Source: Entrophospora sp. SA101 (taxonomy: Eukaryota; Glomeromycota; Glomeromycetes; Entrophosporales; Entrophosporaceae). From it: 64,000 nucleotides of DNA. The notes beneath the pieces were generated by a model that ran no database searches, was not told the DNA's origin, and was given only the letters and a program-made list of their open reading frames with translations. Below are positions 1-40,724 of this stretch, in pieces. Location of the stretch: NCBI GenBank assembly GCA_958430865.1, contig CAUDNR010000080.1, positions 40,229 through 104,228 of the forward strand, read 5' to 3'. The position numbers and the translations under genes were made by a program. Every line of letters begins with the position of its first letter. Position 1 is the stretch's first letter.

Positions 1-80
1 TGTTTATAGGTAAGATTGTTGTTTTTTTTAATTTTTAAATTTTTTTTTTAAAAATTTTATTAAATTTTTTTTTAATTAAA
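1..80. repeat. Diverged low-complexity left edge of block Q
   Basis: T- and A-runs that resemble but do not match the matching part of the other Q copies (about 21529-21608). The other copies share one exact sequence here and this one differs at many positions. From about position 81 onward the identity becomes complete. The first 20 bases (ending GTAAGATTGTTG) have no counterpart at that place in the other copies, so a junction may lie here. Confidence 0.5.
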
Positions 81-279
81 ATACATATATTTGCTTATTA
101 ATAATTGTGTTTATTGTGAATATATATTGGTTTTCCTTTTTTTTAAAAAAAAAAAAAAAAAAGAATAATTGTCTGAAATTTACACTCTTCTTTCGAAAAA
201 GTGTATTATTTCTATATTGTCATTACATCCATATATTGCAGGAGAGTTGGAAGTATTATTTATTATTGGTGGTAATGGT

Positions 280-1320: not shown

Positions 1321-1443
1321 ACTCCCACCATTCTAAATAAGTAAAAAAAAATTTTCACAAAGATTTCACATAATGAAAATATTGAACATGACAACCGTTT
1401 CTACGATAATTTACATATACATAATATTTTAATATTTGATAAG

Positions 1444-1541
1444 TACAGTCAAACCTCATTTCAACGAATCTTGCATTATATAAAAACATATAGAATTCAT
1501 CGAAATGTGATTAGATTCAATTTGTGCGAGGTTTAATTGTA
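1444..1541. mobile_element. MITE-like element A, copy 1
   Basis: Begins TACAGTCAAACCTCATTTC and ends with the imperfect complement GCGAGGTTTAATTGTA. The TACAGTCAAACCTC terminus is shared with element B 60 bp downstream and with the element at 50134-51054. The length (about 98 bp) and lack of coding capacity fit a decayed MITE of the Tc1/mariner type (inference). Other copies: 22972-23069, 40564-40661, 61249-61346. Confidence 0.6.
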
Positions 1542-1604
1542 TTGCCTTCACTATGTAAAATCTTTGCGAACCTTTTTTAATCTTTTATTGTTTATTTTAT
1601 CAAA

Positions 1605-1730
1605 TACAGTCAAAACCTCGTTTCAACGAGTGGTTGGACACATAAGAAAGGATCATTCAAAATTCGTTGAAACGTGAATTTAATTACAGTTCGCTGAAAC
1701 GAAGTTCTTCGAAACGAGGGTTTGACTGTA
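1605..1730. mobile_element. MITE-like element B, copy 1
   Basis: Terminal inverted repeats: TACAGTCAAAACCTCGTTTC at the left and CGAAACGAGGGTTTGACTGTA at the right. An inner pair (TTCGTTGAAACG and GCTGAAACGAAG) adds to the fold. It is 126 bp and non-coding. Ends in TA suit a Tc1/mariner-type MITE. Other copies: 23133-23258, 40725-40850, 61410-61535. Confidence 0.75.
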
Positions 1731-3240
1731 CAAACGAAATATGATGATATAACAACGGGAATGAAAGAATTCTTAAATTTTTATCATAATTTTTTTAACA
1801 AGCAAAATTTATATTTTTTCTGAGACATTAAAAGTGACAGGCACAGACAGACGCCAACTTACGTAATTTTTCAATTGGTTGTTGACCTATTAATTTTATA
1901 TATTGAGATTCATATACATCTGTATAAAATCCCTATTGCTGTATTCTTTGAATTAATGCATTATTTAAACAATCTGCTAAACTTACCTAAAATTTTATTT
2001 GCCAAAATGATTCCAGTGTGGTTTTCATGAAGAGGTACAAGATCAAGTAATATTTTCATCATCATCAACCCAATATGCCGTAACACCAAGATATCCCTGA
2101 TTTGTAGTTGTGGAAGACCAGGTATCTGTTGTAAGGGATATCTTGTGTGAAAAATAACTAATCATTTTCTTAATGATAATTTTTCGCTTCTTAAAATTGA
2201 TACAATCCAATTATTTGGCATCAAGGTAACTTATAACGTAAATCAACAAAATATTTATCCTCAAAGGATTTAATTTATTTTTAATTTTGAATCATTGGAA
2301 ATCGAATATTGTTTAATATTATTATTGTTGAGAATATTTTTACGTTTATTTTGAAAATGACGTACTAATGCCTGTAACTTAACTTTGCAAAATGTACATT
2401 CTACAGAACCATATTTCAAATATTGACGATCTGCTTTTGTATTTTTAATGGTAAATTTTGTTAATGTTAAGGTTGAGGTTGACATTGATGTTGAAGATGG
2501 TCTCGAGTATAAAAATTGACAGCCCAATTTTTTTCTTAACACACTGTATATCATATAACTGTTACTTCCAAGTATATTGATGAGCTTCTGGATCGGGAAG
2601 CACGTATCAGCAGGCACCATCCCCGTATATTAGCAATAGGATCTCTTGACCGCTCCATTTTATCAATCTGCGTGTTAAATCTACCTTCAAGCATTCTGAG
2701 AATATTCCTATGGTATGGGCAATCCTGGGTACTCGCTGGCTCTCTAAAGTAATGCTTGTCAAGAAAATGGCCCAAAATTGTACAAACTTGTCCACCGATG
2801 TAGGATTATTTTATGATTAACTCTGTATTAGGGATCGTATTTCTTCTCTTTATGTGGCTACAAAAAAAGGAGTATATTGACATAAGCATTTCATATGATT
2901 AAAAACCTTAATCGACGCTAATATCTTACATTTTACGAAAATCATCCACAGGCATAGAAACTTTTGGATATCAAAGTCACAAGGTTGGTGAATTACTTAC
3001 TATCTACAGAATTCTTGACTTATGCCCAAATCTGCGTTGGATAAAACCATCAAAGAGACAAAAGAAATACGGAGGATTGTTGTAAATCAATACAGGAAGG
3101 AAATCGAATTACGAGAAATATTGTTATGGCTTCTAGATGCCCATTCAAACCTATTTATATTTGAAAACCATTTATTACTAATTTCTGGGCAGTAAACATG
3201 TAAATAATTATCATAAGGATTCTAAAATGACTTGGTATTG
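1731..3240. other. Remaining block Q sequence, no confident gene
   Basis: Several minus-strand open stretches (2270-2620, 2551-2775, 2607-2795) overlap in different frames. One contains a CTFCKVKLQALVRHF segment, a Cys pair followed by His, which might be a decayed zinc-finger piece. No start, intron or family could be established. The stretch recurs at 23259-24768, 40851-42360 and 61536-63045. Confidence 0.3.
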
Positions 3241-3313
3241 TTGATTAATGGATTAGTTGATTAATGGATTTATTAACATTTATTAATATCATTGTTAAAA
3301 AAAATTTTTCAAC

Positions 3314-3905
3314 CTGAATTATAATCAAGACCTGGAATTTGTTGTAATCTTGGCGGGCTTTTTCTTGGAGTAAGTGGTGCTAAATAATTAAAATTTTGAA
3401 ATATTATTACTTTATCATATATTATATACAGATAGACAGATAAATGGATAGATAGATTACTATTTATAGCAGGTTGTCTAGTGTATACAATTAATTGGAC
3501 TTCCGATTTTCTCTTTGAAAATTCATCCCAAAACGATTTATAAGATATTTCATTTTTTAAATCATGATGTAGAGAATCTTTCCAAGTACCTATACGATAA
3601 TACAGAGTAGTAGTGTCTATTGTTCCCCATTTCTTTGGCAGTTTTAGATTAGAAATGTTGTTGGTTAATTGTTGAATGACAAGATTTGGATCATCGTTTT
3701 GATCAATATTTGCAATAGATACACGTAGACTACGTTCAATTTTAGCGATTGGATCATGAGTCACATCGAAACACACTAATGGAATTGTTGGTAAATCTTT
3801 TATGTGGAAAGAGGAAGGAAAAAAAGAATTGGGAAAGATAAGAAGATTGATCGATTATGATTTTCAAAAGAAAGAAAATCATAAACATATATGTATGTAT
3901 GTATG

Positions 3906-3949
<44 letters not shown>

Positions 3950-4661
3950 TATGTATTTAATATGTGTGTATGTGTATATAGAAAAGAAAAAAGAAAAAGA
4001 ATTGTTACACATCTAAAAATTATATATATAACTTTTTTTAAAATCATTCCTTTTTTTTTTTTTTAAGAATAAAAGTATAAAATATAAAATATAAAATATA
4101 AAAATATGATTCGATACCATTTGAAATTGGATTATGATGATTTAAATCATCGATTTCTCCTGATGTAGCAGATGATGTTGATGTTGTTTTTTTATGATGA
4201 TGATGATGATGATGATTAATGTTATTATTACTAATAATATTATTGTTACTACTATTATTACTACCACCAATGCTACCATTGCTACTAGCAGCGGCAGCAG
4301 CAGCAACAGCAGCGCCTGATTTTTCTTCATGTTCAATTAATTCTTCTAAAACCTCTCTCATCATTGGTTCAAATTCTTGTGATTCCCAACCATAATTAAG
4401 AGCCATATTATAACTTTCAATATGTTGAAAGTATTGGTCCAAAGAATTTGCTTTGATGGTACCTTGTTTCTTTTTTGCATCGATATATTCTTGTAGGTAT
4501 TGTTTTGTTACCGGGAAAAAAGAATCAACGGTAGGATGAAGACTTTTAAGAACATTTAAAAAATTTTTTACACCACAACGTGAAGCACGAGTGTTTAAAC
4601 TGACAGACCTTTGACGACGACGTGGCTTCGAAATATGAAGATGTTTACGAGTTGCAGGCAT
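3314..4661 (-). pseudogene. Unrecognised four-exon gene, copy lacking exon 4
   Basis: Inverted copy of the gene described at 19597-21334. Exons 1-3 are at 4661-4118, 3796-3461 and 3379-3314, with the same phases and splice sites. The block boundary at 3241 falls inside intron 3, so the last exon, which supplies about 98 C-terminal residues, is absent and block Q follows instead. No acceptor that restores the frame is evident. If the junction is real this copy encodes a truncated protein. If it is a chimera the gene is not a separate locus. Confidence 0.7.
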
Positions 4662-5494
4662 TTTTTCTATTTGTTGTAATTAAAAAACTTTTGTTTATTT
4701 TATTGGAAAAATTTTTTTATAAAGTCTAAATTATAAATATTTTATATATATATATATATATATAATTTATTATTAATATATATATATGTGTATGTATGTA
4801 TATAAATATGTAAATATTAAAATATTATTAATAACATGTAAAATAATTAATTAATAAAAAAGTTTCGTAAACAAAGTGAAGAAGATAAAGTAAGGTAGGC
4901 GTCAAATATGGGTAAAGTAGTTGGTGGTTAATAGTAACTAATAATTTACTAATAGTAATAATAATAATAATAATAACAATAACAGCAACGTAGTAGTAAA
5001 TCTACCATTAAAATAAATAATAGATTTAGTTTTTTATTGTTTAAATTCTAATTTATAATATTTTACAACTAATTAATGAATATTATTTAATTATATTTAT
5101 AATATAGGAGAAAAAAATTCCTTTGTGAAAAAAAAACGCCACCCATCAACGGATAACAATTGAACAATAGGGTTTAACGGAGACATTATGCTAATTTTTT
5201 CAAATAATAAAAATTAATGATAATAATAATAATTCTGACAATCTGGAAATAAATAAGTATTAATAATAATATAATAATAATAATAAAAATAATCTAAACA
5301 TAGATTAAAAATGAGTTTAAGCTATAGATGACGAAATCAACTTTAAAACTTTAAATTTAGGTAAATCTTTTTTAAAAAAGATCTGCCACATAATTATTTA
5401 ACGTGTTTTATTTTTAATTTTATTTATTTTAATAAATTCTCCTAAATAAAAAAAACAATTTTCGATTTACTATTTATATTTATTATAAAATAAT

Positions 5495-5525
<31 letters not shown>

Positions 5526-5645
5526 ATAAATCATGGGGCATGCTGGACAAATTAAACATGTGGCACGAAAGAATTGCAGGGGTTCAAATTTAGTAGAATT
5601 GGTTATTAACCGTCACAACGATTTTTTTATTGGCCAACAAAAAAA
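4662..5645. other. AT-rich 5' flank of the unrecognised gene
   Basis: No gene seen. It holds TA and TAA microsatellites (for example 4744-4764, 4958-4975, 5506-5527) and A/T runs. It is the upstream region of the minus-strand gene and probably contains its promoter, but no specific element can be named. Copies at 18613-19596 and 56890-57873. Confidence 0.4.
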
Positions 5646-6376
5646 TTAAAATTTCAAATTTGAAGTGATAAAAAGACAACAGGTAATTGGTCGATTGAAA
5701 ATATTTCGGCTATGGCTATAAAGTCCACACATAATAGAATATTGAGCACTTATCTGTGTATCAATGGTTCTTGAATTCCATATTTCTTTGAAATGTTGAG
5801 ATCGATCATAAAGATTATGAAGTTCGTGTCTATCTCTAGACAATTAGAATACACCAAGTTAAAATACGTAATGACAAATTACTTGCATTTAACGTCAAAC
5901 TGGATGTATGTAACAATAATTATTGTAGAAAGACGATTTCAAACAATAGCATCACATACTCCAACAGCCCTTTAAGCCATTGTTAAGCTTCACAAGGTCA
6001 CTCAACCCATTGATGAATGCTTTACAAATTTGAAAGCAAATCCTCCCTTTTTTGATTCGGGGCGTAAACTGAAAAATCAGGTTTCGAAAATCTTTAAAAA
6101 GAATAACACTTTTTCCACAAGTCTAAAACATACTCGAATTCAAGTTCGTTGAAGATAAAAAATACACATCTTTCTCCAAGGAGCAAAACTTCTTTTTACA
6201 ATGTGAGGATGAATCTGTAATTTTTCATTTGCCATAATGGGAAAAGCCTGTTCTTTTCTTCCAAAACGCCATTGACTGTTTGACCGATGCAAGGCAATAA
6301 AAGTATATGGGCAATTATTATTGGTTTCGAAGCCAAGAAACCCATAATAGCTAGGACAGAAACTAAATTTGTTCAT
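5646..6376 (-). pseudogene. Two unrecognised coding-like fragments, copy 1
   Basis: Inverted copy of the fragments described at 17882-18612. The pieces are at 6376-6140 and 5843-5646 on the minus strand. Nothing differs from the forward copies by eye. Confidence 0.3.
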
Positions 6377-8206
6377 TTTATTTTGACACGTAATCTTATC
6401 ATTTTTTGCTCAATCTTCATCCTCATTCTCATTCCACATTTATCTATTCATTTATCTATTCATTTATCTATTCATTTATCTATTGATTATTTATCCAATA
6501 ACTTTTATAGTAGAATTAAATATGCAGGATATTTTTAACCACTAAAAAACAATTTTAATTTATTGTTTATTTATTTTATTTTTAAAAACAATGTCAATAT
6601 TAGGATAACAATAGAGAACCCATCATTATTATCTATATCAAAAAATGTAACCTTAAAAGTTTGTGTATTTTTTGCACTACAAAAAACTAAAAAAACTTGT
6701 AAGTCTTATAATTTGTAATTAAAAATATTTTAAGATATTATTTTTAATGTTTTTGATATTTAAAGTTTATCAATTTATCAATTTATCATACAATTGTAAA
6801 AAATGTATTTATGATCTATTAATTAGTATTGCTAATAATAAAATTTCACACTTTTGCTTATCACATATTTTAATTAGACATTGAATGATTATTATTATTA
6901 TTATTATTTTTAGTAGAGTTTGTCCGTCCGTTCATTTAATTCTGTTAATATTAAAAAATTAAACATGATCTAATTAATTCATCGGCGTTATGCATAATTC
7001 GTCCAATTATTTTCTATGATTATATTTACTTTGTTTTCCATTCTAGTAAATTCATGCCTATCAAAAAATTAAAATTGGGAATAATCGGGATTTTTCATTC
7101 TCATGATTATTTATCGCAGTAAATATTAATAAACGATAACAACTTTTTCAATTAATTGATTGGTTGGATCGATTGGACCGATTAGCAAATCAATCTGTTG
7201 GACAAAATCGAAAGATTTTACTGCAAATTTTTTAACAGTTCTGCGGGGGAGATGCCGTCAATGCTTATCATATTTTTTTAATATTAAATTATTTTGGTCG
7301 TATGTATTAATTTAATTTTGATCTAATTATTTTTACTTTACTACAGTTTTTTATGATTTCGTGTTTTCCATATTAGTTTAAAATATCAACAAATAAAAAG
7401 CCTAACAAAATTTTATTATTAATAATTTTGTTCACGTGCTTATCACCTATCTAAAGCACAAATAATTAATAAGTGCACAAATACATTGTTTGTAAGCCAA
7501 TTTTGTAAATGATTTACTTGCAATTCCTAATTTCGTAATTTACTGTTTTTTTTTAAAAAAAATGTTTTACCAAATTTATATCAATAGATACAAAAAAGAA
7601 ATAAACACGCATTCTCCAGATTTAGATCACAAAATATTATAGTAATTTACAAAGAAGTAGAAAACAACATTATTGGTACAATAGACAAAAATCTTTTTTC
7701 TTTAAAACTTAATCGTTGATTATTATATTAAAAAATGTGACATCTTTATATGGATTTGAAAGTATCAAATATAATAATATGATGAAATTAGTGAAATTAT
7801 AAATAATGTAATTAATTAATAAAATCAAAACAATTTGTTCTGTTCGATCTCTTTATACTGTATTGGATGTATGTATGTAACGTATATTGTATATAAATAC
7901 AATTGAAATATTCATAATCATATAAAGATACACATGTAAATTCTTTGTATAATTTTTTTTAAAAAAATAAATCGTTCTTTAAAATAAAATAAAATTTGAC
8001 AATTTTATTTTTCAACATTTCCATCACCAACCAACATCCCAAATATTTTACGATTTACTCTTAAGAAATAATTTGTTGAATTTAACAAAAAATTTTTTTT
8101 TTAAAGAACGATTGATTAACTAATTCACTTTGCTTATTAGTGGAATAGTTTTTACATTCTTTTAAATCCTCTCTCCTTCAATCCATTAATCATTAATTAT
8201 CGAAAA
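6377..8206. other. Non-coding AT-rich region between P genes
   Basis: No gene seen on either strand. It holds a four-unit tandem repeat of ATTTATCTATTC (about 6437-6484), an ATT run near 6890 and long A/T-rich tracts. It lies between the fragment pair and the surface-protein gene and includes that gene's upstream region. Copies at 16052-17881 and 54329-56158. Confidence 0.4.
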
Positions 8207-9093
8207 ATGGTTTTTGTTAAAATACTTTTTTTCGTTATTTTGTCAATTTTGGTAAATTTTTTTTTAATTTTCAAAGTTTTCAAAAAAGATAATTTAAAAG
8301 AATATAATATATTAATATAGTAATATGATTTTTATGTATAGGGGTCCACCGGCATCAATGGAGACGATATTTTTACAGGCATATCCAAGGCTCCTGGAAA
8401 TCGGGGTGCTTGGTACACGTGTAGTGATATAGACACACGTTACGTCAGTAAGTTATATTATTCCAATAATTCCATCAATAATAATCATTCATTATTACCA
8501 CATCACCATCATAACCATCATTACTTTCAGGTTTTGCAATGAATATCGTTGATTCGAGCACACCGATGACTCCGGGATTTATCGGGACAATTATACCAGG
8601 TGTACCGCCAGAAAAACCAATTCCAAAATATCGACCAGGATTAATAGTTTATCAATTAGCTAATTCCGAAATGCAAAAATACTTGGATCCAACATCCGAT
8701 TTCGAATACGTACCATCATTGTCTTGTTATGATGAACCGAAAGCAACTTGTAAACAAGACGCTGGTAAAATCCCATTACAATTCAGTACTAAACAATGCT
8801 TGTTAATGGAAAATCCAACTGGTCTCGATATTGTTTTTAATGTTTCATTATCATGGACAAAATCAATTTTTAATTCCGATGTTCAAAGTCCTAATGTACC
8901 CGGTGGACTTGATTCAATCACAACCACCACAGATGTTTCTTCTGCGACATCTAGTTCTTCACCAACTACCGTATCTGATCCCAATTATTCTTCTTCGTCG
9001 AGTTCTGCATTCAGTATTAATAGTGATACCAAATTTTTTAATATTTTAAATATTATAATTGCCGCTAGTTTATTGTTAATTTATTATTTTTAA
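8207..9093 (+). CDS. Secreted GPI-anchored-type surface protein, copy 1
   Basis: Three exons: 8207-8251, 8342-8447, 8531-9093; introns GT..AG with consistent phases; 237 residues. Exon 1 is a hydrophobic signal peptide (MVFVKILFFVILSIL). The mature part has four cysteines (about residues 42, 116, 124, 140), suggesting two disulfides, and an NVS glycosylation site near 154. A Ser/Thr-rich stalk of about 50 residues follows, then a terminal hydrophobic segment (FFNILNIIIAASLLLIYYF), the classical layout of a GPI-anchored wall or membrane protein. I recognise no enzyme motif, so the function is unknown; an adhesin, wall or host-interface protein is possible. The start is the first ATG and opens the signal peptide. 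Copies with the same sequence are at 15165-16051 and 53442-54328. Confidence 0.75.
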
Positions 9094-10090
9094 TACCAAA
9101 TTTATTCATAATTTTTTTTTATTTATGTATAATATCATTTATTTATTTATTTATTTATTTATGTATTTTTATTTTTTGTATAAATTTAAATTTTTTTTTT
9201 GTCTGACCTTTTTTTTTTCGAGAAAAAAAAAACAATGATATTTTTATCCGGAATTCTTCTTAATAATTTATAATGGATTTTTGTCGTTGTCGATTTTTTT
9301 TTCTCGCCTTATTATTTAATGTAGGAGAGAATATTGGGGTTCAAAATGATGGAACGACTGTTATTATTATTATTTTAATAATAGCATTATAATGTTTTTT
9401 CTCGTTCCAAACTCATTTAAATACTCGCTCAATACATCCATATAAGATAATCGGAATAATTAATTCCAAAGCAAGTATTCATGCCAAGCTTATTCTTATC
9501 CGGCTTGATCCGATTTACTTTGCTTCTCCGGCTGGTCAGCATTTGTGCCTTTTCTTTTTTTAAAACATTTCAATTCTTTAACTTTAATCTGAAGTTACTG
9601 AATAATATTTTCACTTTTGAAGTTACCCATTTAAATATTTTAGTTGCTCAATCAATACTGTTACGTGATCAGATAAAAATAAAAGTAATGACAAGCATAG
9701 TAGTGCTCGTCCTATTTTATTTAATTTGGTAACATGGTGAAATACAAGATCACGATTAGTTCTGAAAATGACGAACTTTTATATAGGATTGAAGAAATTC
9801 CCACTTTCAAATAATAATCGAAAATCACAACTAAATATCTTTTTAAATGAAGATATCCAAAATATGAAATAACTAAAGATTATCTTTGTAATTGTTTTTG
9901 TATAACAAAATTTTATAACAATCGGAAAAGAATTAAATTTCTATCGAGCAACCAACTAGTCATAAAATGCAACTCATAATCAATATCATGGGCAAAGAAT
10001 GATGAATTAATTGATGAATTTAAATTTAAATCCAATATTTACTTCTTAGATTGAATATTCAATTTGAATTTTACAATGGTTTATAATGGG
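9094..10090. other. Intergenic region downstream of the surface-protein gene
   Basis: No gene supported. It holds an ATTT tandem tract (about 9127-9165), T runs that may serve as the 3' end region, and an 83-codon open stretch (9481-9732) with a hydrophobic, low-complexity translation and no family resemblance. Copies at 14168-15164 and 52445-53441. Confidence 0.4.
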
Positions 10091-10647
10091 TTGGGCTTCT
10101 ATTCAAATAAGGTTTATTTGAATTATTCACTTTATTCGTTATAAATTTGAGTATTCGAATTACATTGAAAGTTTATTCGAATAAGGCGAACAAATTAATT
10201 CGGATAAACAAATAATTAAGGTCCAGTTTAAATCCAAGCCCACCGAAAAGATTGCTATTTATTAAAAGAAACATGAATCTTGATTCATTCTTTCCTTATT
10301 ATTTTCATTTTTAATTTCAATTCTTATAATAATAAAATCAATATTAAACCTTGTTGTATATATAGTTTGAATATTTAAGTAATGAACAACCCATGATTCC
10401 AAATAATCTAATAAAATGAATGAACAAACCCAAGATTCCAATAATGAATGAACAAATAAAACAAATAACATGAATAAAAACGAATAATTCAAATAAAAAA
10501 AACAAATAATCCAAATAAAACAAATAATTCGAATAAAGCGAATTAAATTTTTAATTCAAATAAAACGAATTAAATTTTTTAATTAATTAAAGATCAACTG
10601 TATTACGAATAATTCGAAAAAGAATTTTGGATTGTTAATAGAAGCCC
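10091..10647. mobile_element. Non-autonomous element with 9-bp target duplication, copy 1
   Basis: The sequence TATAATGGG stands directly on both sides (10082-10090 and 10648-10656), as expected for a 9-bp target-site duplication. Just inside are inverted ends: TTGGGCTTCTATTC at the left and the complement of GGGCTTCTATTAAC at the right. The interior is AT-rich with many ATTCGAATAA/AATAATTCG words and has no coding capacity. A 9-bp duplication is typical of Mutator-like elements, although the inverted ends are short here. Copies at 13611-14167 and 51888-52444. Confidence 0.7.
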
Positions 10648-10806
10648 TATAATGGGTAAGTATAAAGTTCCGAACGGTTCGATACCAAATCCAGGCATCC
10701 TAAATTTGTCAACTGTGCAGAAATATATATATAATAACTTTACAATAACTTGTAGCTTAGTTTTGGCACGAAGTATAAATGTTGGAAGGATCCTATTTCT
10801 AAATAC

Positions 10807-11471
10807 GGGTCTGGGACACTTTACCGACACCCACTTTACCGACAAGACACTTTACTGACAGGACACTTTACCGACAGGACACTTTACCGACAATCAAAGT
10901 AAAGTCAAACTTGACGTAGAAATGGTCTTGCGAGAAACACCACGACCCCCACAGAGACCACAAGATCGTAATCGTGAAATACGGATTCAAACAGTATTAA
11001 ACGACCGTAACATTAGATCAACTATAAAGTTTCTTCGGGGCATTGCCCATAATATTTCATTTTAAATTTTTTTTTTGTTATAATAATTAATGTGTCAAAA
11101 TAAAAGTTTTTTGTAAATGATTGATAAATAAATTTAATAAAAAAATAAATTTTTATCAGTTTCATCAGATAAAAAAAAATATATTACACATGTATCTATA
11201 TTGTATTTTTATGGACTTGCTTTTGATGCAAAGTAAGGATAATAAGTGGTGTTATTAGTTATGACGTACGGCTAAGTTTTTCACTGCACAACAAACCAAA
11301 TTTTTAGCTAGTTATCCAGGTCTTCACACAGTCCTTGGCAAATTGTTAACACAATACTTGTCGGTAAAGTGTCTTGTCGGTAGTGTCCTGTCGGTAAAGT
11401 GTCTTGTCGGTAAAGTGGTGTCGATAAAGTGTCCTGTCGGTAAAGTGGGTGTCGGTAAAGTGTCCGGGTCC
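10807..11471. mobile_element. Foldback-like element with tandem CACTTTACCGACA ends, copy 1
   Basis: The left end is an array of about six units of the type GGACACTTTACCGACA. The right end is the same array in inverse orientation (TGTCGGTAAAGTGTCC). The outermost bases are GGGTCTGGGACAC at the left and the complement of GGACCCGGACAC at the right. Long inverted ends built of short tandem units around a unique middle are the hallmark of foldback elements. The middle (about 10900-11360) carries a 47-codon open frame. No transposase is present, so it would depend on a helper. Copies at 12847-13451 and 51064-51728. Confidence 0.75.
10922..11065 (+). CDS. Small 47-residue open frame inside the foldback element, copy 1
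   Basis: ATG to TAA, 47 residues, beginning MVLRETPRPPQRPQDRN, basic and proline-rich in the first third, then IRSTIKFLRG near the end. It looks more protein-like in composition than the AT-rich surroundings, and the local GC content is clearly higher. It may be a remnant of a transposon gene or a chance frame. I recognise no family. It is unchanged in the other two copies (13193-13336 and 51470-51613, minus). Confidence 0.3.
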   Translation: MVLRETPRPPQRPQDRNREIRIQTVLNDRNIRSTIKFLRGIAHNISF

Positions 11472-11480
11472 GCTAAAACA

Positions 11481-11716
11481 TACAGTTGAACCTCGCTATA
11501 ACTAAGGCTCCGAATCGAATCGAATCGAATCGAATCGAATTTGAGAGTGATTCGGTCGATTCGATTCGATCTGTAGCCAATTCTATTCGATTCGTGACTC
11601 GATTCGAATTGATTCGAACCAAACCGGATTCCTAAAAAATTTTTAACGTCATATTAAATTTATATTTTTAATTTGATAATTTAAATTTATATTACACAGT
11701 GAATCTCAATTAGTGT
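11481..11716 (-). mobile_element. Part of nested ATTCGA-rich element, cut by the gap
   Basis: Starts with TACAGTTGAACCTCGCTATA, followed by GGCTCCGAAT and six perfect CGAAT units, then degenerate ATTCGA words. It is the reverse complement of 50819-51054, the right-hand quarter of the element described at 50134-51054. The N gap removes the rest. Confidence 0.7.
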
Positions 11717-11726
11717 NNNNNNNNNN
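11717..11726. other. Assembly gap (10 N)
   Basis: Ten N bases. It separates the inverted P block from the unique spacer, and it interrupts both the ATTCGA-rich element on the left and a kinase gene on the right. The true distance and adjacency are unknown. Confidence 1.
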
Positions 11727-12448
11727 TGGGAATTTAGTTATACCATAACAAGGAACAATCATTTGTGATTTAATTTTACAATAATTCAATGCCTGGAAAT
11801 AAATATAAAATCAATTAATGTTATATAATATAGTATTTATTTTTTGCTACAAATAAAATAAAATCAATTACCTCATCAAAAAATTCTTTTGTTGGATTAC
11901 TTGAATTATTTAAACTTTTTAATACTACATCTTTCTGTTTTATTTTCATTATAATCAATTATATATCCCCTTGTCCATTCAGCAGTATAAATTGAACTAA
12001 ATCCACCTTCAGTTAATTTTTTTATTCCTTTAAATTGCTCAAAAGGTACCCATTCTAAAATATTAGTTGGCAAAGATGTGAGAATTTGACATTGTTGGAT
12101 AAAATTATCAACCAAGTCATTACCAAATGTCCAAGTGCCAAAAAGACTGTAATTGTAAACTAATACAACCTTCACAGAATCTATCAGAATATTTTATTGA
12201 TTTATACTTGCTACATTCTCTTAGTCTGCCCAATTTATAAATTGCATTATCTAATTCAAAATCATAAATAAAATATTCTTTGCAATATTCTTTTTCACTC
12301 TCAGAAAGCTCCTTGCTTTTTTTGACCAATGAAAAAAAATAATCTTTTTGACTTTATGTGAATTTGCTAAAGCATCATTATACATTCTATCATAAATTTC
12401 ATCTACAAATCCAATTCTTTCTAGTGATAATAATTTATAAATTGACAT
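11727..12448 (-). pseudogene. Protein kinase (TKL-like, AM-fungal type), frameshifted and truncated
   Basis: The translation starts MSIYKLLSLERIGFVDEIYD and continues through EKEYCKEYFIYDFELDNAI, a CxxC-like Cys region (FCEGCISL), FGTWTFGNDLVDNFIQQC and WVPFEQFKGIKKLTEGGFSS, the glycine-rich loop start of a kinase domain. After YIIDYNENK the frame shifts to DVVLKSLNNSSNPTKEFFDE, which contains the VxxK ATP-lysine. A GT..AG intron then leads to MIVPCYGITKFP, cut by the N gap. At least three single-base frame breaks are needed, at or near A- or T-runs around 12340, 12150 and 11935. This N-terminal region plus TKL domain is typical of the large kinase family of Rhizophagus and relatives. It is either a pseudogene or damaged by sequencing errors. 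The C-lobe is missing. Confidence 0.75.
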
Positions 12449-12648
12449 TTTTAACTTAATATCTTTTAAAAGTATTTCCTTCGTACCACAATTGGTTTAA
12501 ATTGCGTCATATTTAAAAATAAATAGTAGATCATTCTGGAAAATATTACATACGCGAGTTTTCTAAAAAAAAGATCAATAAATAAAAAATTAAATTTGAA
12601 CAAAAATTTTTATATAAGTAATTTATAAAACCGTTAATATTTTCAACA

Positions 12649-12912
12649 ATGTCTCCTAGAAAAAACCGTACATGTGAAATCTGTAAATATGAATTTTCAA
12701 CTCCGCAAAAACTTACGCAGCATTATAAAAGTAAGAAAACTCCATGCCATCCACGTACAATTCCAGAACCAATACAAAATAATGTTTTACCAGGAATTTT
12801 TTTAGATTTGGATAAAGAAGTACCCTGGCCAGTTCAATTTCCGATCGGACCAGGACACTTTACCGACACCCAATTTACCGACAAGACACTTTACCGACAA
12901 GTATTGTGTTAA
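12649..12912 (+). CDS. Small C2H2-type zinc-finger protein, 3' end running into a foldback element
   Basis: ATG frame of 87 residues, divergent from the kinase remnant 200 bp away. The N-terminus CEICKYEFSTPQKLTQHY is a C2H2 finger of the type CxxC-x12-H, whose second ligand may be the later His or Cys in KTPCHPR. The last 22 residues (from about GPGHFTDTQFTDKTLY) are a translation of the CACTTTACCGACA array, so the natural C-terminus is lost or replaced. Such short fingers are common in glomeromycotan genomes (family knowledge). The function is unknown; DNA binding is inferred. The element join at about 12847 may be real or a chimeric junction. Confidence 0.5.
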   Translation: MSPRKNRTCEICKYEFSTPQKLTQHYKSKKTPCHPRTIPEPIQNNVLPGIFLDLDKEVPWPVQFPIGPGHFTDTQFTDKTLYRQVLC

Positions 12913-13451
12913 CAATTTGCCAAGGACTGTGTGAAGACCTGGATAACTAGCTAAAAATTTGGTTTGTTGTGCAGTGAAAAACTTAGCCGTACGTCATAAC
13001 TAATAACACCACTTATTATCCTTACTTTGCATCAAAAGCAAGTCCATAAAAATACAATATAGATACATGTGTAATATATTTTTTTTTATCTGATGAAACT
13101 GATAAAAATTTATTTTTTTATTAAATTTATTTATCAATCATTTACAAAAAACTTTTATTTTGACACATTAATTATTATAACAAAAAAAAAATTTAAAATG
13201 AAATATTATGGGCAATGCCCCGAAGAAACTTTATAGTTGATCTAATGTTACGGTCGTTTAATACTGTTTGAATCCGTATTTCACGATTACGATCTTGTGG
13301 TCTCTGTGGGGGTCGTGGTGTTTCTCGCAAGACCATTTCTACGTCAAGTTTGACTTTACTTTGATTGTCGGTAAAGTGTCCTGTCGGTAAGGTGTCCTGT
13401 CAGTAAAGTGTCTTGTCGGTAAAGTGGGTGTCGGTAAAGTGTCCCAGACCC
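12847..13451. mobile_element. Foldback-like element, copy 2 with a shortened left array
   Basis: Same middle and right array as the element at 10807-11471, but the left array has only about three units instead of six or seven. The first units (GACACCCAATTTACCGACA) do not match the other copies, and identity with them starts at 12876. This is therefore where the unique spacer joins block P. Contains G at 13391, where copy 1 has the complementary T (10867). Confidence 0.75.
13193..13336 (-). CDS. Small 47-residue open frame, copy 2
   Basis: Same frame and sequence as 10922-11065, inside foldback copy 2. See that entry. No function can be assigned. Confidence 0.3.
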   Translation of the reverse strand: MVLRETPRPPQRPQDRNREIRIQTVLNDRNIRSTIKFLRGIAHNISF

Positions 13452-13610
13452 GTATTTAGAAATAGGATCCTTCCAACATTTATACTTCGTGCCAAAACTA
13501 AGCTACAAGTTATTGTAAAGTTATTATATATATATTTCTGCACAGTTGACAAATTTAGGATGCCTGGATTTGGTATCGAACCGTTCGGAACTTTATACTT
13601 ACCCATTATA

Positions 13611-14167
13611 GGGCTTCTATTAACAATCCAAAATTCTTTTTCGAATTATTCGTAATACAGTTGATCTTTAATTAATTAAAAAATTTAATTCGTTTTATTT
13701 GAATTAAAAATTTAATTCGCTTTATTCGAATTATTTGTTTTATTTGGATTATTTGTTTTTTTTATTTGAATTATTCGTTTTTATTCATGTTATTTGTTTT
13801 ATTTGTTCATTCATTATTGGAATCTTGGGTTTGTTCATTCATTTTATTAGATTATTTGGAATCATGGGTTGTTCATTACTTAAATATTCAAACTATATAT
13901 ACAACAAGGTTTAATATTGATTTTATTATTATAAGAATTGAAATTAAAAATGAAAATAATAAGGAAAGAATGAATCAAGATTCATGTTTCTTTTAATAAA
14001 TAGCAATCTTTTCGGTGGGCTTGGATTTAAACTGGACCTTAATTATTTGTTTATCCGAATTAATTTGTTCGCCTTATTCGAATAAACTTTCAATGTAATT
14101 CGAATACTCAAATTTATAACGAATAAAGTGAATAATTCAAATAAACCTTATTTGAATAGAAGCCCAA
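13611..14167. mobile_element. Non-autonomous element with 9-bp target duplication, copy 2
   Basis: Reverse complement of 10091-10647. Flanked by CCCATTATA at 13602-13610 and 14168-14176, the complement of TATAATGGG. Confidence 0.7.
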
Positions 14168-15164
14168 CCCATTATAAACCATTGTAAAATTCAAATTGAA
14201 TATTCAATCTAAGAAGTAAATATTGGATTTAAATTTAAATTCATCAATTAATTCATCATTCTTTGCCCATGATATTGATTATGAGTTGCATTTTATGACT
14301 AGTTGGTTGCTCGATAGAAATTTAATTCTTTTCCGATTGTTATAAAATTTTGTTATACAAAAACAATTACAAAGATAATCTTTAGTTATTTCATATTTTG
14401 GATATCTTCATTTAAAAAGATATTTAGTTGTGATTTTCGATTATTATTTGAAAGTGGGAATTTCTTCAATCCTATATAAAAGTTCGTCATTTTCAGAACT
14501 AATCGTGATCTTGTATTTCACCATGTTACCAAATTAAATAAAATAGGACGAGCACTACTATGCTTGTCATTACTTTTATTTTTATCTGATCACGTAACAG
14601 TATTGATTGAGCAACTAAAATATTTAAATGGGTAACTTCAAAAGTGAAAATATTATTCAGTAACTTCAGATTAAAGTTAAAGAATTGAAATGTTTTAAAA
14701 AAAGAAAAGGCACAAATGCTGACCAGCCGGAGAAGCAAAGTAAATCGGATCAAGCCGGATAAGAATAAGCTTGGCATGAATACTTGCTTTGGAATTAATT
14801 ATTCCGATTATCTTATATGGATGTATTGAGCGAGTATTTAAATGAGTTTGGAACGAGAAAAAACATTATAATGCTATTATTAAAATAATAATAATAACAG
14901 TCGTTCCATCATTTTGAACCCCAATATTCTCTCCTACATTAAATAATAAGGCGAGAAAAAAAAATCGACAACGACAAAAATCCATTATAAATTATTAAGA
15001 AGAATTCCGGATAAAAATATCATTGTTTTTTTTTTCTCGAAAAAAAAAAGGTCAGACAAAAAAAAAATTTAAATTTATACAAAAAATAAAAATACATAAA
15101 TAAATAAATAAATAAATAAATGATATTATACATAAATAAAAAAAAATTATGAATAAATTTGGTA
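14168..15164. other. Intergenic region, copy 2
   Basis: Reverse complement of 9094-10090. No gene seen. Confidence 0.4.
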
Positions 15165-16051
15165 TTAAAAATAATAAATTAACAATAAACTAGCGGCAAT
15201 TATAATATTTAAAATATTAAAAAATTTGGTATCACTATTAATACTGAATGCAGAACTCGACGAAGAAGAATAATTGGGATCAGATACGGTAGTTGGTGAA
15301 GAACTAGATGTCGCAGAAGAAACATCTGTGGTGGTTGTGATTGAATCAAGTCCACCGGGTACATTAGGACTTTGAACATCGGAATTAAAAATTGATTTTG
15401 TCCATGATAATGAAACATTAAAAACAATATCGAGACCAGTTGGATTTTCCATTAACAAGCATTGTTTAGTACTGAATTGTAATGGGATTTTACCAGCGTC
15501 TTGTTTACAAGTTGCTTTCGGTTCATCATAACAAGACAATGATGGTACGTATTCGAAATCGGATGTTGGATCCAAGTATTTTTGCATTTCGGAATTAGCT
15601 AATTGATAAACTATTAATCCTGGTCGATATTTTGGAATTGGTTTTTCTGGCGGTACACCTGGTATAATTGTCCCGATAAATCCCGGAGTCATCGGTGTGC
15701 TCGAATCAACGATATTCATTGCAAAACCTGAAAGTAATGATGGTTATGATGGTGATGTGGTAATAATGAATGATTATTATTGATGGAATTATTGGAATAA
15801 TATAACTTACTGACGTAACGTGTGTCTATATCACTACACGTGTACCAAGCACCCCGATTTCCAGGAGCCTTGGATATGCCTGTAAAAATATCGTCTCCAT
15901 TGATGCCGGTGGACCCCTATACATAAAAATCATATTACTATATTAATATATTATATTCTTTTAAATTATCTTTTTTGAAAACTTTGAAAATTAAAAAAAA
16001 ATTTACCAAAATTGACAAAATAACGAAAAAAAGTATTTTAACAAAAACCAT
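15165..16051 (-). CDS. Secreted GPI-anchored-type surface protein, copy 2
   Basis: Exons 16051-16007, 15916-15811 and 15727-15165. It encodes the same 237 residues as the copy at 8207-9093 (signal peptide, four cysteines, Ser/Thr-rich stalk, hydrophobic tail). This copy sits in the continuous P-Q-ATPase arrangement and is a good candidate for the original locus. Confidence 0.75.
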
Positions 16052-17881
16052 TTTTCGATAATTAATGATTAATGGATTGAAGGAGAGAGGATTTAAAAGA
16101 ATGTAAAAACTATTCCACTAATAAGCAAAGTGAATTAGTTAATCAATCGTTCTTTAAAAAAAAAATTTTTTGTTAAATTCAACAAATTATTTCTTAAGAG
16201 TAAATCGTAAAATATTTGGGATGTTGGTTGGTGATGGAAATGTTGAAAAATAAAATTGTCAAATTTTATTTTATTTTAAAGAACGATTTATTTTTTTAAA
16301 AAAAATTATACAAAGAATTTACATGTGTATCTTTATATGATTATGAATATTTCAATTGTATTTATATACAATATACGTTACATACATACATCCAATACAG
16401 TATAAAGAGATCGAACAGAACAAATTGTTTTGATTTTATTAATTAATTACATTATTTATAATTTCACTAATTTCATCATATTATTATATTTGATACTTTC
16501 AAATCCATATAAAGATGTCACATTTTTTAATATAATAATCAACGATTAAGTTTTAAAGAAAAAAGATTTTTGTCTATTGTACCAATAATGTTGTTTTCTA
16601 CTTCTTTGTAAATTACTATAATATTTTGTGATCTAAATCTGGAGAATGCGTGTTTATTTCTTTTTTGTATCTATTGATATAAATTTGGTAAAACATTTTT
16701 TTTAAAAAAAAACAGTAAATTACGAAATTAGGAATTGCAAGTAAATCATTTACAAAATTGGCTTACAAACAATGTATTTGTGCACTTATTAATTATTTGT
16801 GCTTTAGATAGGTGATAAGCACGTGAACAAAATTATTAATAATAAAATTTTGTTAGGCTTTTTATTTGTTGATATTTTAAACTAATATGGAAAACACGAA
16901 ATCATAAAAAACTGTAGTAAAGTAAAAATAATTAGATCAAAATTAAATTAATACATACGACCAAAATAATTTAATATTAAAAAAATATGATAAGCATTGA
17001 CGGCATCTCCCCCGCAGAACTGTTAAAAAATTTGCAGTAAAATCTTTCGATTTTGTCCAACAGATTGATTTGCTAATCGGTCCAATCGATCCAACCAATC
17101 AATTAATTGAAAAAGTTGTTATCGTTTATTAATATTTACTGCGATAAATAATCATGAGAATGAAAAATCCCGATTATTCCCAATTTTAATTTTTTGATAG
17201 GCATGAATTTACTAGAATGGAAAACAAAGTAAATATAATCATAGAAAATAATTGGACGAATTATGCATAACGCCGATGAATTAATTAGATCATGTTTAAT
17301 TTTTTAATATTAACAGAATTAAATGAACGGACGGACAAACTCTACTAAAAATAATAATAATAATAATAATCATTCAATGTCTAATTAAAATATGTGATAA
17401 GCAAAAGTGTGAAATTTTATTATTAGCAATACTAATTAATAGATCATAAATACATTTTTTACAATTGTATGATAAATTGATAAATTGATAAACTTTAAAT
17501 ATCAAAAACATTAAAAATAATATCTTAAAATATTTTTAATTACAAATTATAAGACTTACAAGTTTTTTTAGTTTTTTGTAGTGCAAAAAATACACAAACT
17601 TTTAAGGTTACATTTTTTGATATAGATAATAATGATGGGTTCTCTATTGTTATCCTAATATTGACATTGTTTTTAAAAATAAAATAAATAAACAATAAAT
17701 TAAAATTGTTTTTTAGTGGTTAAAAATATCCTGCATATTTAATTCTACTATAAAAGTTATTGGATAAATAATCAATAGATAAATGAATAGATAAATGAAT
17801 AGATAAATGAATAGATAAATGTGGAATGAGAATGAGGATGAAGATTGAGCAAAAAATGATAAGATTACGTGTCAAAATAAA
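16052..17881. other. Non-coding AT-rich region, copy 2
   Basis: Reverse complement of 6377-8206. No gene seen. It lies between two divergent transcription units and should include the surface-protein promoter. Confidence 0.4.
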
Positions 17882-18612
17882 ATGAACAAATTTAGTTTCT
17901 GTCCTAGCTATTATGGGTTTCTTGGCTTCGAAACCAATAATAATTGCCCATATACTTTTATTGCCTTGCATCGGTCAAACAGTCAATGGCGTTTTGGAAG
18001 AAAAGAACAGGCTTTTCCCATTATGGCAAATGAAAAATTACAGATTCATCCTCACATTGTAAAAAGAAGTTTTGCTCCTTGGAGAAAGATGTGTATTTTT
18101 TATCTTCAACGAACTTGAATTCGAGTATGTTTTAGACTTGTGGAAAAAGTGTTATTCTTTTTAAAGATTTTCGAAACCTGATTTTTCAGTTTACGCCCCG
18201 AATCAAAAAAGGGAGGATTTGCTTTCAAATTTGTAAAGCATTCATCAATGGGTTGAGTGACCTTGTGAAGCTTAACAATGGCTTAAAGGGCTGTTGGAGT
18301 ATGTGATGCTATTGTTTGAAATCGTCTTTCTACAATAATTATTGTTACATACATCCAGTTTGACGTTAAATGCAAGTAATTTGTCATTACGTATTTTAAC
18401 TTGGTGTATTCTAATTGTCTAGAGATAGACACGAACTTCATAATCTTTATGATCGATCTCAACATTTCAAAGAAATATGGAATTCAAGAACCATTGATAC
18501 ACAGATAAGTGCTCAATATTCTATTATGTGTGGACTTTATAGCCATAGCCGAAATATTTTCAATCGACCAATTACCTGTTGTCTTTTTATCACTTCAAAT
18601 TTGAAATTTTAA
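17882..18612 (+). pseudogene. Two unrecognised coding-like fragments, copy 2
   Basis: Fragment 1 (17882-18118) starts at an ATG and reads MNKFSFCPSYYGFLGFETNN, then FGRKEQAFPIMANEK and VKRSFAPWRKMC. It has normal amino-acid balance and is richer in Trp, Cys and Arg than random AT-rich sequence. The frame is open upstream of the ATG for a further eight codons (DKITCQNK). Fragment 2 (about 18415-18612) follows a TCTAG acceptor-like site and reads RDRHELHNLYDRSQHFKEIW. The 300 bp between contain stops in all frames I checked. They may be exons of one gene with unseen borders or remains of a dead gene. I do not recognise the family. Confidence 0.35.
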
Positions 18613-18732
18613 TTTTTTTGTTGGCCAATAAAAAAATCGTTGTGACGGTTAATAACCAATTCTACTAAATTTGAACCCCTGCAATTCTTTCGTGCCACAT
18701 GTTTAATTTGTCCAGCATGCCCCATGATTTAT

Positions 18733-18763
<31 letters not shown>

Positions 18764-19596
18764 ATTATTTTATAATAAATATAAATAGTAAATCGAAAAT
18801 TGTTTTTTTTATTTAGGAGAATTTATTAAAATAAATAAAATTAAAAATAAAACACGTTAAATAATTATGTGGCAGATCTTTTTTAAAAAAGATTTACCTA
18901 AATTTAAAGTTTTAAAGTTGATTTCGTCATCTATAGCTTAAACTCATTTTTAATCTATGTTTAGATTATTTTTATTATTATTATTATATTATTATTAATA
19001 CTTATTTATTTCCAGATTGTCAGAATTATTATTATTATCATTAATTTTTATTATTTGAAAAAATTAGCATAATGTCTCCGTTAAACCCTATTGTTCAATT
19101 GTTATCCGTTGATGGGTGGCGTTTTTTTTTCACAAAGGAATTTTTTTCTCCTATATTATAAATATAATTAAATAATATTCATTAATTAGTTGTAAAATAT
19201 TATAAATTAGAATTTAAACAATAAAAAACTAAATCTATTATTTATTTTAATGGTAGATTTACTACTACGTTGCTGTTATTGTTATTATTATTATTATTAT
19301 TACTATTAGTAAATTATTAGTTACTATTAACCACCAACTACTTTACCCATATTTGACGCCTACCTTACTTTATCTTCTTCACTTTGTTTACGAAACTTTT
19401 TTATTAATTAATTATTTTACATGTTATTAATAATATTTTAATATTTACATATTTATATACATACATACACATATATATATATTAATAATAAATTATATAT
19501 ATATATATATATATAAAATATTTATAATTTAGACTTTATAAAAAAATTTTTCCAATAAAATAAACAAAAGTTTTTTAATTACAACAAATAGAAAAA
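18613..19596. other. AT-rich 5' flank of the unrecognised gene, copy 2
   Basis: Reverse complement of 4662-5645. No gene seen. The region before the ATG at 19597 should contain the promoter. TA and ATT microsatellites only. Confidence 0.4.
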
Positions 19597-20308
19597 ATGC
19601 CTGCAACTCGTAAACATCTTCATATTTCGAAGCCACGTCGTCGTCAAAGGTCTGTCAGTTTAAACACTCGTGCTTCACGTTGTGGTGTAAAAAATTTTTT
19701 AAATGTTCTTAAAAGTCTTCATCCTACCGTTGATTCTTTTTTCCCGGTAACAAAACAATACCTACAAGAATATATCGATGCAAAAAAGAAACAAGGTACC
19801 ATCAAAGCAAATTCTTTGGACCAATACTTTCAACATATTGAAAGTTATAATATGGCTCTTAATTATGGTTGGGAATCACAAGAATTTGAACCAATGATGA
19901 GAGAGGTTTTAGAAGAATTAATTGAACATGAAGAAAAATCAGGCGCTGCTGTTGCTGCTGCTGCCGCTGCTAGTAGCAATGGTAGCATTGGTGGTAGTAA
20001 TAATAGTAGTAACAATAATATTATTAGTAATAATAACATTAATCATCATCATCATCATCATCATAAAAAAACAACATCAACATCATCTGCTACATCAGGA
20101 GAAATCGATGATTTAAATCATCATAATCCAATTTCAAATGGTATCGAATCATATTTTTATATTTTATATTTTATATTTTATACTTTTATTCTTAAAAAAA
20201 AAAAAAAGGAATGATTTTAAAAAAAGTTATATATATAATTTTTAGATGTGTAACAATTCTTTTTCTTTTTTCTTTTCTATATACACATACACACATATTA
20301 AATACATA

Positions 20309-20352
<44 letters not shown>

Positions 20353-21334
20353 CATACATACATACATATATGTTTATGATTTTCTTTCTTTTGAAAATCA
20401 TAATCGATCAATCTTCTTATCTTTCCCAATTCTTTTTTTCCTTCCTCTTTCCACATAAAAGATTTACCAACAATTCCATTAGTGTGTTTCGATGTGACTC
20501 ATGATCCAATCGCTAAAATTGAACGTAGTCTACGTGTATCTATTGCAAATATTGATCAAAACGATGATCCAAATCTTGTCATTCAACAATTAACCAACAA
20601 CATTTCTAATCTAAAACTGCCAAAGAAATGGGGAACAATAGACACTACTACTCTGTATTATCGTATAGGTACTTGGAAAGATTCTCTACATCATGATTTA
20701 AAAAATGAAATATCTTATAAATCGTTTTGGGATGAATTTTCAAAGAGAAAATCGGAAGTCCAATTAATTGTATACACTAGACAACCTGCTATAAATAGTA
20801 ATCTATCTATCCATTTATCTGTCTATCTGTATATAATATATGATAAAGTAATAATATTTCAAAATTTTAATTATTTAGCACCACTTACTCCAAGAAAAAG
20901 CCCGCCAAGATTACAACAAATTCCAGGTCTTGATTATAATTCAGGTTGAAAAATTTTTTTTAACAATGATATTAATAAATGTTAATAAATCCATTAATCA
21001 ACTAATCCATTAATCAAACAATCAACCAATGTTATTAGATAGCTCAACGCACTCGCCAACGTTAATACAATTGAAATCAGTAACTATTAGATCACCAAAT
21101 AGAACATACAAACAGAACATAGCAATCACTGATAAAACAACTTTTTCTTCACTTTTAGCCTTTGCAATTAAGAAACCACCTCCACCAGGTAAACAATTTG
21201 TTCTACAAAGTGCTGACGGAGAATTAGAATATATGCCCGAGGATCCGGTTAGGAAAGTAATCCATGGTACACTTCATGCTGATGTTGTGGTAAAAATGGA
21301 AGATATTAACGAAGTAGATTTTACTAAATTTTAA
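19597..21334 (+). CDS. Unrecognised four-exon protein (413 residues), complete
   Basis: Exons 19597-20140, 20462-20797, 20879-20944 and 21039-21334. All introns are GT..AG and all phases agree, giving 413 residues. Residues 1-30 are strongly basic (KPRRRQRS), possibly a nuclear signal. Residues 45-108 are helical and loosely resemble the SAM-like core-binding domain of tyrosine recombinases (VTKQYLQEYIDAKKKQGTIK), but no catalytic domain follows. Residues 116-160 are Ala, Asn and His homopolymers of the fast-evolving kind. Residues 182-290 (DLPTIPLVCFDVTHDPIAKI...) look globular and conserved. The C-terminal 98 residues form a compact, strand-rich segment ending EDINEVDFTKF. I do not recognise the family. 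Other copies: 3314-4661 (no exon 4), 38054-38926 (no exon 1), 57874-59611 (complete). Confidence 0.75.
20311..20373. repeat. TA/CATA microsatellite in intron 1
   Basis: Alternating TA run followed by CATA units. The extra copy at 37920 begins within this microsatellite, so it marks a rearrangement or misassembly point. Also at about 3885-3947 and 58588-58650. Confidence 0.85.
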
Positions 21335-22971
21335 AATTGAACTATTTATATATGTATATATATATTATAATAATACTAATAATATATAAATATATTATTG
21401 ATATATATATATATATACATTGTACAGAAAGATTTATTATCATTGTTATATGATAAAAAATAGTTAATAATTAATAATTAATAATAATAATAATAATTAA
21501 TAATAATAATATAGTTTGATTTTTTGAAGAACAGTTTTTTAAAAAAAAATTTTTTTTAATTTTTAAATTTTTTTGTAATATATTTCATTAAATTTTTTTG
21601 TAATTAAAATACATATATTTGCTTATTAATAATTGTGTTTATTGTGAATATATATTGGTTTTCCTTTTTTTTAAAAAAAAAAAAAAAAAAGAATAATTGT
21701 CTGAAATTTACACTCTTCTTTCGAAAAAGTGTATTATTTCTATATTGTCATTACATCCATATATTGCAGGAGAGTTGGAAGTATTATTTATTATTGGTGG
21801 TAATGGTGAATGATGATGATGCCACTACGACTTCTACGACTTCATCAATTCTGAGCTTTTTTCCTTTTATGAGATGAGTGATGATGATGATGAAACTGCC
21901 ATCATCTTATCAATTAATACTTTTCCTTTTTGTACTTCTTCTCTATTTTTTCCCCCTTTTCTTTTTTTCCTGCTAATGCTGCAGCTAATTCAGCAACTGG
22001 TTTCTGTGGTTGTTGACATATCTTATCAGCTGGTGAAAATTTGAGTCTTTGGCTTTGGTGGCAACTGTTCATTCTCAATCAATTGCCCGTTATATTGTTC
22101 AGTTTTGTATTGGAAAAATTCTTGTGATGGTCCAATTTGAATTTCCATGAATACTTGTTTTCTGGTGAATTACCAACTTTCTTGACTGAATATTTGGTTT
22201 TATTGGTTCCATGAAATAATTTCTTTGGAACTGATTGATGATTGTTCCAGTCCGAGCCCCTTCAATTTAAAGAAATTCTCATCCACCATCTCTTCAACAA
22301 TATCATATACAAGTTACAAATGAATCTTCATTCTCCAATATTATTTCATCGATGATGAAGCGCTATGTAGCAAAATCATTACAACATTCTGGTTTTGCTA
22401 GAACATTTAGGAAATATCTTGATAATCATGATAAAAGAATGATAGTTGAGCATGTTCTTTATGAAAATGGAATAGGATTATTAGATGATATTGACTCTTA
22501 CCTCGAGATTATTTGAAGGATTTAAGAAGAAGATTGGATGCTTGCTTTTAATAATCAATCCAAATGGCAGTGATGGCGGTTCCAACAATTCAGAAAAGAT
22601 TACGGCAAGACTTGTTTCATAATTCATTTCTAATGGTGGTGTCTCTTTTGGCTATTATTATTATTATTACAAATAACAACGTTGTAACAGCCGAAGAATC
22701 ACTAGAAATAGAATTGGCAAAGATAGAAAGTGGGCGCAACAGCAGCAGCAGAATAGCATCTTCAGAAGTGCTTTATTCCCGGTCAGTGTTTTCCACGGGC
22801 ATTGGACAAAAGTATAATCTGATATTTTTTTTTTAAAGAAGGGAAGCAACTCCCACCATTCTAAATAAGTAAAAAAAAATTTTCACAAAGATTTCACATA
22901 ATGAAAATATTGAACATGACAACCGTTTCTACGATAATTTACATATACATAATATTTTAATATTTGATAAG
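21335..22971. other. Block Q non-coding part, copy 2
   Basis: TA and TAA tracts (21345-21520), T/A homopolymers (21536-21690), then the scraps described at 280-1320. No gene can be supported. Confidence 0.35.
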
Positions 22972-23069
22972 TACAGTCAAACCTCATTTCAACGAATCTT
23001 GCATTATATAAAAACATATAGAATTCATCGAAATGTGATTAGATTCAATTTGTGCGAGGTTTAATTGTA
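22972..23069. mobile_element. MITE-like element A, copy 2
   Basis: Same sequence as 1444-1541. Ends TACAGTCAAACCTC and GAGGTTTAATTGTA. Confidence 0.6.
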
Positions 23070-23132
23070 TTGCCTTCACTATGTAAAATCTTTGCGAACC
23101 TTTTTTAATCTTTTATTGTTTATTTTATCAAA

Positions 23133-23258
23133 TACAGTCAAAACCTCGTTTCAACGAGTGGTTGGACACATAAGAAAGGATCATTCAAAATTCGTTGAAA
23201 CGTGAATTTAATTACAGTTCGCTGAAACGAAGTTCTTCGAAACGAGGGTTTGACTGTA
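23133..23258. mobile_element. MITE-like element B, copy 2
   Basis: Same sequence as 1605-1730. Ends TACAGTCAAAACCTCG and the complementary GAGGGTTTGACTGTA. Confidence 0.75.
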
Positions 23259-25188: not shown

Positions 25189-25372
25189 AAGGATATTAAA
25201 TTCATTGATCACTAGAAAGCTTTTTATAGATAGGCCAATCAATTCAGAAAGCCATATTTGGGAAATCTAACTGTAACAGTAATAGTAACAGTAATAATTT
25301 AATAATATTAATTTGCCTTTTTTATTTATTTTTATTTTTTATAAAATAAAATTTTTAACTTTCAACCCAGTG

Positions 25373-40661: not shown

Positions 40662-40724
40662 TTGCCTTCACTATGTAAAATCTTTGCGAACCTTTTTTAA
40701 TCTTTTATTGTTTATTTTATCAAA

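Follow-up and report, generated by a model that had tools for sequence, protein, structure and literature searches.

The 64,000-nucleotide stretch of Entrophospora sp. SA101 DNA considered here (the window) appears to contain a near-perfect palindrome with arms of more than 8 kb. This structure is almost certainly an assembly error, since what it consists of is the same assembled stretch placed twice, head to head, across a scaffold gap. Comparison of the copies with one another and with the rest of the assembly suggests that redundant, partly chimeric contigs were set in a row (probability about 0.93). As biology, the apparent palindrome is very probably of no import; as a warning, it matters.

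Two near-identical arms on two contigs

Positions 3241-11382 are the reverse complement of positions 12876-21017. The arms measure 8142 bp each, their paired coordinates sum to 24258, and a sole mismatch, at 10867/13391, separates them (99.99% identity). The arm coordinates with their constant sum and the single base difference thus proved to be exactly as originally predicted. The match breaks sharply at both ends, and the inverted identity is far beyond chance.

A scan for N runs found two in the window, ten bases each, at 11717-11726 and 35883-35892. Because of these runs, the window was treated as three contigs, all carried by the 139,562-bp scaffold C75: contig A (up to 11716), contig B (11727-35882) and contig C (from 35893 past the window end). 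The first gap, between A and B, lies inside the spacer of the palindrome, and the arms are therefore on two contigs, the left arm forming the end of contig A (3241-11716, minus strand) and the right arm lying in contig B (12876-21017, plus strand); the second gap separates B from C. No continuous sequence leads from arm to arm. Within the 1.49-kb spacer, contig A accounts for 334 bp (11383-11716) and contig B for 1149 bp (11727-12875), with the ten Ns between them. Position 11717 had been correctly singled out in the original prediction, which nonetheless took the spacer for a single sequence. The same prediction placed a kinase remnant and a zinc-finger gene in the spacer. The zinc finger found some backing, in a weak match of the open reading frame (ORF) at 12622-12909 to the Pfam family zf-C2H2_jaz (24.3 bits, with a cut-off of 22.6), whereas none of three ORFs examined where the kinase should lie matched a Pfam family at E values up to 1.

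A third copy in linear order

Contig C carries a third copy of the arm (50819-59294, plus strand), in which arm and right flank follow each other in uninterrupted linear order from 50819 past the window end; this was taken as the parental order. The arm of contig A is a reverse-complement copy of that stretch, identical to it at 3241-10866 and 10868-11712. Only two bases differ: 10867, which falls within a 16-bp minisatellite, and 11713, which lies four bases before the 10-N gap. Contig B likewise repeats contig C: its 23,007 bp at 12876-35882 (plus strand) correspond to the sequence that starts at 51153 and continues out of the window, with a single difference, at window position 32723, and a longest exact run of 19,847 bp. 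The copy in contig B stops at the second gap, while contig C continues past the corresponding point. A 6,065-bp exact copy of contig B's tail is found at the end of scaffold C75, its last base being the one at which B itself breaks off.

One piece of the repeated region, 20327-25511 (5,185 bp), occurs three times in the window with 0 differences. The extra exact copy lies inside contig C itself (37919-43103, plus strand); positions 37919-38628 constitute a partial copy of the arm. Contig C enters this extra copy at 37919 by way of an AT microsatellite. The last 199 bp of the copy are repeated, a repeat scan revealing a perfect tandem pair at 42903-43303 (plus strand), after which the next stretch begins; the pair is probably an unmerged contig overlap. 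That next stretch, the left flank of the arm in contig C (43304-50818), recurs at 99% identity on scaffold C1032 between other neighbours; C1032 enters it from another flank, and around the start of the arm in contig C the identity is only 91%. With the same stretch present on C1032 beside a different left neighbour, the left side of contig C is open to doubt, and contig C itself is not beyond doubt. Its right side, from the arm onward, is the part repeated by contigs A and B.

The genome was searched with the arm and its inner extension as an 8,495-bp query, 40 of 1,363 first-look candidates being scored. Among these, three long copies and one partial copy were obtained, all on scaffold C75, the long copy in contig B being listed without the first 310 bp of the query. 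Copy numbers given here are lower bounds, because the genome search scores the best candidates only, at times omitting the query's own place. No full arm was found off C75 among the 40 candidates scored; the matches listed there are repeat pieces at 69-97% identity, the longest 721 bp at 85%. These results bear on whether the structure could be a mobile element whose core is flanked by long inverted repeats. Two inverted arms do enclose a core, and the core of the spacer belongs to a dispersed repeat family. A mobile element would sit poorly, however, with the presence off C75, among the candidates scored, of short repeat pieces only, and with the lack of an outer terminus, contigs B and C continuing through 21017 and 59294, respectively, into the same flank. 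Nor was a transposase or other mobility domain detected in the 20 window ORFs scanned, 7 of them in the arm, a set made up of longer ORFs rather than shorter exons. On these three grounds the mobile element was rejected as barely credible.

Genes beside the arm

A gene for a copper-transporting P-type ATPase lies beside the arm in both contigs B and C (25298-28318 in B, plus strand; Pfam domains HMA, E1-E2_ATPase and Hydrolase). The best named relatives of its product are proteins of Rhizophagus, Funneliformis and Glomus at 70-72% identity, followed by those of other Glomeromycotina. A tree of 23 proteins leaves it on a branch of its own, in an open fork from which the Glomeraceae and Diversisporales rows also arise. 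By elimination, this position would suit the family Claroideoglomeraceae, which has been described as sister to those two groups (PMC10512289). Further along contig B, a gene search identified the exons of malate synthase (32307-34356, minus strand), and the single difference between contigs B and C, at 32723, falls in this gene. Scaffold C75 has malate synthase at three places, C1684 at two and C1711 at one. The gene had been put forward as a single-copy reference for read depth; its presence in several places of the assembly means that it provides no such yardstick.

Junctions at the contig edges

At the outer edge of the left arm, positions 73-3243 (plus strand) are an exact 3,171-bp copy of contig C 59878-63048, reversed against the left arm, so that contig A folds back at 3241-3243. 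The two parent sequences overlap there by 3 bp of microhomology, and the points joined lie about 3.75 kb apart in contig C. The junction has the form of the inverted chimeras generated by multiple displacement amplification (MDA), being inverted, spanning less than 10 kb and showing a match within the 2-21 nt range. This description applies to the outer edge of contig A only: the centre, from arm to arm, is a 10-N gap and not a join of the MDA type.

The first positions of contig B, 11727-12965 (plus strand), are exactly identical to the minus strand of scaffold C1961, on which the genome search matched the start of contig B to 41116-42264. Since identity to C1961 reaches 12965 and identity to contig C starts at 12876, the two loci share 90 exact bases (12876-12965), which the junction comparison showed to be common to contigs B and C and to C1961. 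This segment is the probable misjoin point of contig B, an exact repeat of this length being the kind of site where a short-read assembler could join wrong neighbours. When the last 9.9 kb of C1961 were used as a query, none of the places scored held a second full copy.

The same pattern elsewhere in the assembly

The assembly comprises 101.35 Mb in 2,123 scaffolds. Pairings of equal matches were listed by eye from four genome searches, two matches being paired when each had at least 200 bits and they agreed in score, in identity and in the range of the query covered; a repeat of about 225 bp (query 4026-4294) was left out, and a trio on C1490, C1490 and C1108 was counted as one within-scaffold and one between-scaffold pairing. 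Ten of the 19 pairings fell within one scaffold, despite the large number of scaffolds available. Slices were fetched for these ten and for one pair from the repeat left out (C1340). All 11 pairs were 100% identical over the main aligned block, a figure that is in part the result of selection, because equal score was the ground of choice; 5 of them were inverted and 6 direct. The within-scaffold share and the mixed orientations, for their part, are no product of that selection. The aligned blocks measured 8,545 bp for C1490 and 715-1,482 bp for the others.

The sequence between the copies was read for two of the five inverted pairs, throughout for C65 and in part for C1490. In both, a 10-N gap lies between exact inverted copies. 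A C65 stretch whose last base directly precedes the gap is listed at 100% identity on C1390 and C608, and again on C608 at 98%. For a stretch of C1490, the matches listed at 99-100% include three on C1750, two inverted ones on C1860 and one on C159; the C1490/C1860 pair is identical over 2,711 bp. Exact duplication also extends to MCM genes, which in fungi are usually single: two of the four MCM loci seen each occur on a pair of scaffolds, and the copies agree at 978/978 and 992/992 bases. Doubling is not general, however, which tells against an artefact: besides the result for the end of C1961, the far-left stretch of C75 matches other scaffolds at 98-99%, except for 213 bp at 100%.

Copies at 98-99% would suit an assembly in which one locus had been retained in several versions, stemming from different nuclei or haplotypes, and these had been placed in the same scaffold; the inversion would then reflect either a true difference among nuclei or a misplacement. 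Merged assemblies of several nuclei are known to keep duplicated genes (PMC6987183). The versions of the present locus have hardly diverged: contigs B and C differ at one base in 23,007 bp, and the three 5,185-bp copies at none. These differences are too few for distinct haplotypes, and the explanation was rejected as highly improbable. At 1 difference in 23,007 bp it is also meaningless to date a duplication by divergence.

A genuine and very recent inverted segmental duplication must be considered as well, with two or three chromosomal copies of the arm that have stayed identical because they are young or through gene conversion. The 99.99% identity of the arms would be expected of it, contig C crosses one arm copy without a gap, and the genome is rich in repeats and minisatellites. 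Yet the arms are never on one contig, assembly gaps terminate the copies in contigs A and B, and the copy of contig B's tail stops at the scaffold end. Moreover, the same head-to-head arrangement recurs on the two scaffolds examined between their copies, and exact copies also affect genes that are usually single. A real duplication therefore seems very improbable to us. We give the same slight weight to a half-resolved young duplication, in which two or three identical 8-kb arms would point in opposite directions on either side of a core that recombination through a minisatellite had brought in from another locus. Were this true, exact duplications like this one would be numerous, and the genome would be undergoing active rearrangement at its minisatellites and dispersed repeats.

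Proposed origin of the apparent palindrome

The assembly artefact accords with three classes of observation. A gap lies between the copies (at 11717-11726, and likewise on C65 and C1490). Copies end at contig edges, contigs A and B at gaps and the copy of B's tail at the scaffold end, while contig C runs on. Divergence is near zero, and the pattern is found again in unrelated scaffolds and in the MCM genes. There would then be a single true locus, in the order seen in contig C from 50819: the arm, the copper ATPase gene and the malate synthase gene. Contigs A and B would be redundant assembled versions of this locus, each chimeric at one end. Contig A may derive from a fold-back amplification product turned back on itself at its outer edge, whereas the start of contig B may have been misjoined to C1961 sequence through the 90-bp exact repeat. 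A later step of scaffolding or merging would have lined up the three contigs, since they all belong to the same place; with A reversed and ten Ns inserted between the versions, a false palindrome would result. MDA is a likely source of the fold-back in contig A, and its use for this DNA would be plausible from the placement of the organism within Glomeromycotina.

The original prediction had offered a choice between a young inverted duplication and an artefact. The second option is the one favoured by our data, although not in the form proposed, in which a fold-back molecule joins the arms; two contigs flank a 10-N gap at that point. Because this assembly contains exact copies, both inside single scaffolds and across different ones, any gene count, copy number, palindrome or "recent duplication" taken from it needs to be checked against reads.

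Comparison with known systems

Among the listed titles and abstract openings on palindromes in assemblies of arbuscular mycorrhizal (AM) fungi, we found no treatment of the present assembly. The closest parallels come from amplified DNA. Of 475 MDA chimeras, 406 (85%) were inverted, matches of at least 2 bp, and up to 21 bp, were present in 76.8%, and proximity was favoured (Lasken and Stockwell 2007, PMC1855051). The join at 3241-3243 resembles these chimeras in being inverted, in linking points less than 10 kb apart and in its short match. It differs from them in its place within the structure as a whole, since the fold-back is confined to the left arm's outer edge and the centre is a scaffold gap. 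A second parallel is offered by palindromic reads and contigs described after whole-genome amplification (PMC13265396, PMC6218980), where, as here, exact inverted copies mislead assembly; those accounts concern long reads, however, whereas in the present case whole draft contigs stand head to head and amplification would be the presumed cause. The third comes from AM fungi. For Claroideoglomus claroideum, sequencing started from amplified nuclei, the GC content was 27.0-28.2%, and one of the workflows used kept duplicated genes (PMC6987183). The relevant passages of that report make no mention of inverted copies like those seen here, but the merged single-nucleus assemblies of AM fungi that it describes share with the present one the retention of redundant copies of one locus.

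Repeats around the contig joins

Arrays of a 16-bp minisatellite are found at window positions 10815-10893, 11357-11464, 12854-12901, 13366-13444 and 51071-51178. They sit inside a dispersed repeat, and it is here that the join of contig B is located (12876-12965, 90 bp common to contigs B and C and to scaffold C1961 of the same assembly). A perfect 36-bp palindrome within an AT microsatellite, present at 3910-3946 and 20312-20348, lies close to the beginning of contig C's extra copy (37919-43103, an exact repeat of 20327-25511).

A copied stretch is closed at 42903-43303 by a perfect tandem pair of 199 bp, which is probably a contig overlap left unmerged. The sequence that follows, 43304-50818, is found again at positions 105498-113048 of scaffold C1032 (99%) but next to different neighbours; its largest ORF (45571-48180, minus strand, 869 aa) gave no match in Pfam.

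Duplicated genes and inverted copies on other scaffolds

Malate synthase, which the original prediction had put forward as a single-copy standard for read depth, is unsuitable for this purpose because the gene (in contig B at window 32307-34356) occupies three places on the present scaffold, C75, and occurs twice more on C1684 and once on C1711. As judged from sequence slices only, two of the four MCM loci seen occur on two scaffolds each with 0 base differences (C25, C542, C1068 and C2070).

Slice comparison also revealed an inverted match on scaffold C1490, where positions 10001-18545 and 50001-58545 are exact copies across 8,545 bp, a length that is the extent of the slices, the match being open at both of their ends. 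The interval between these copies includes a ten-N gap, at 26896-26905. On scaffold C65, the interval 19000-32700 contains a 1,286-bp sequence twice, in opposite orientations and without a base difference, and a ten-N gap lies somewhere between the two.
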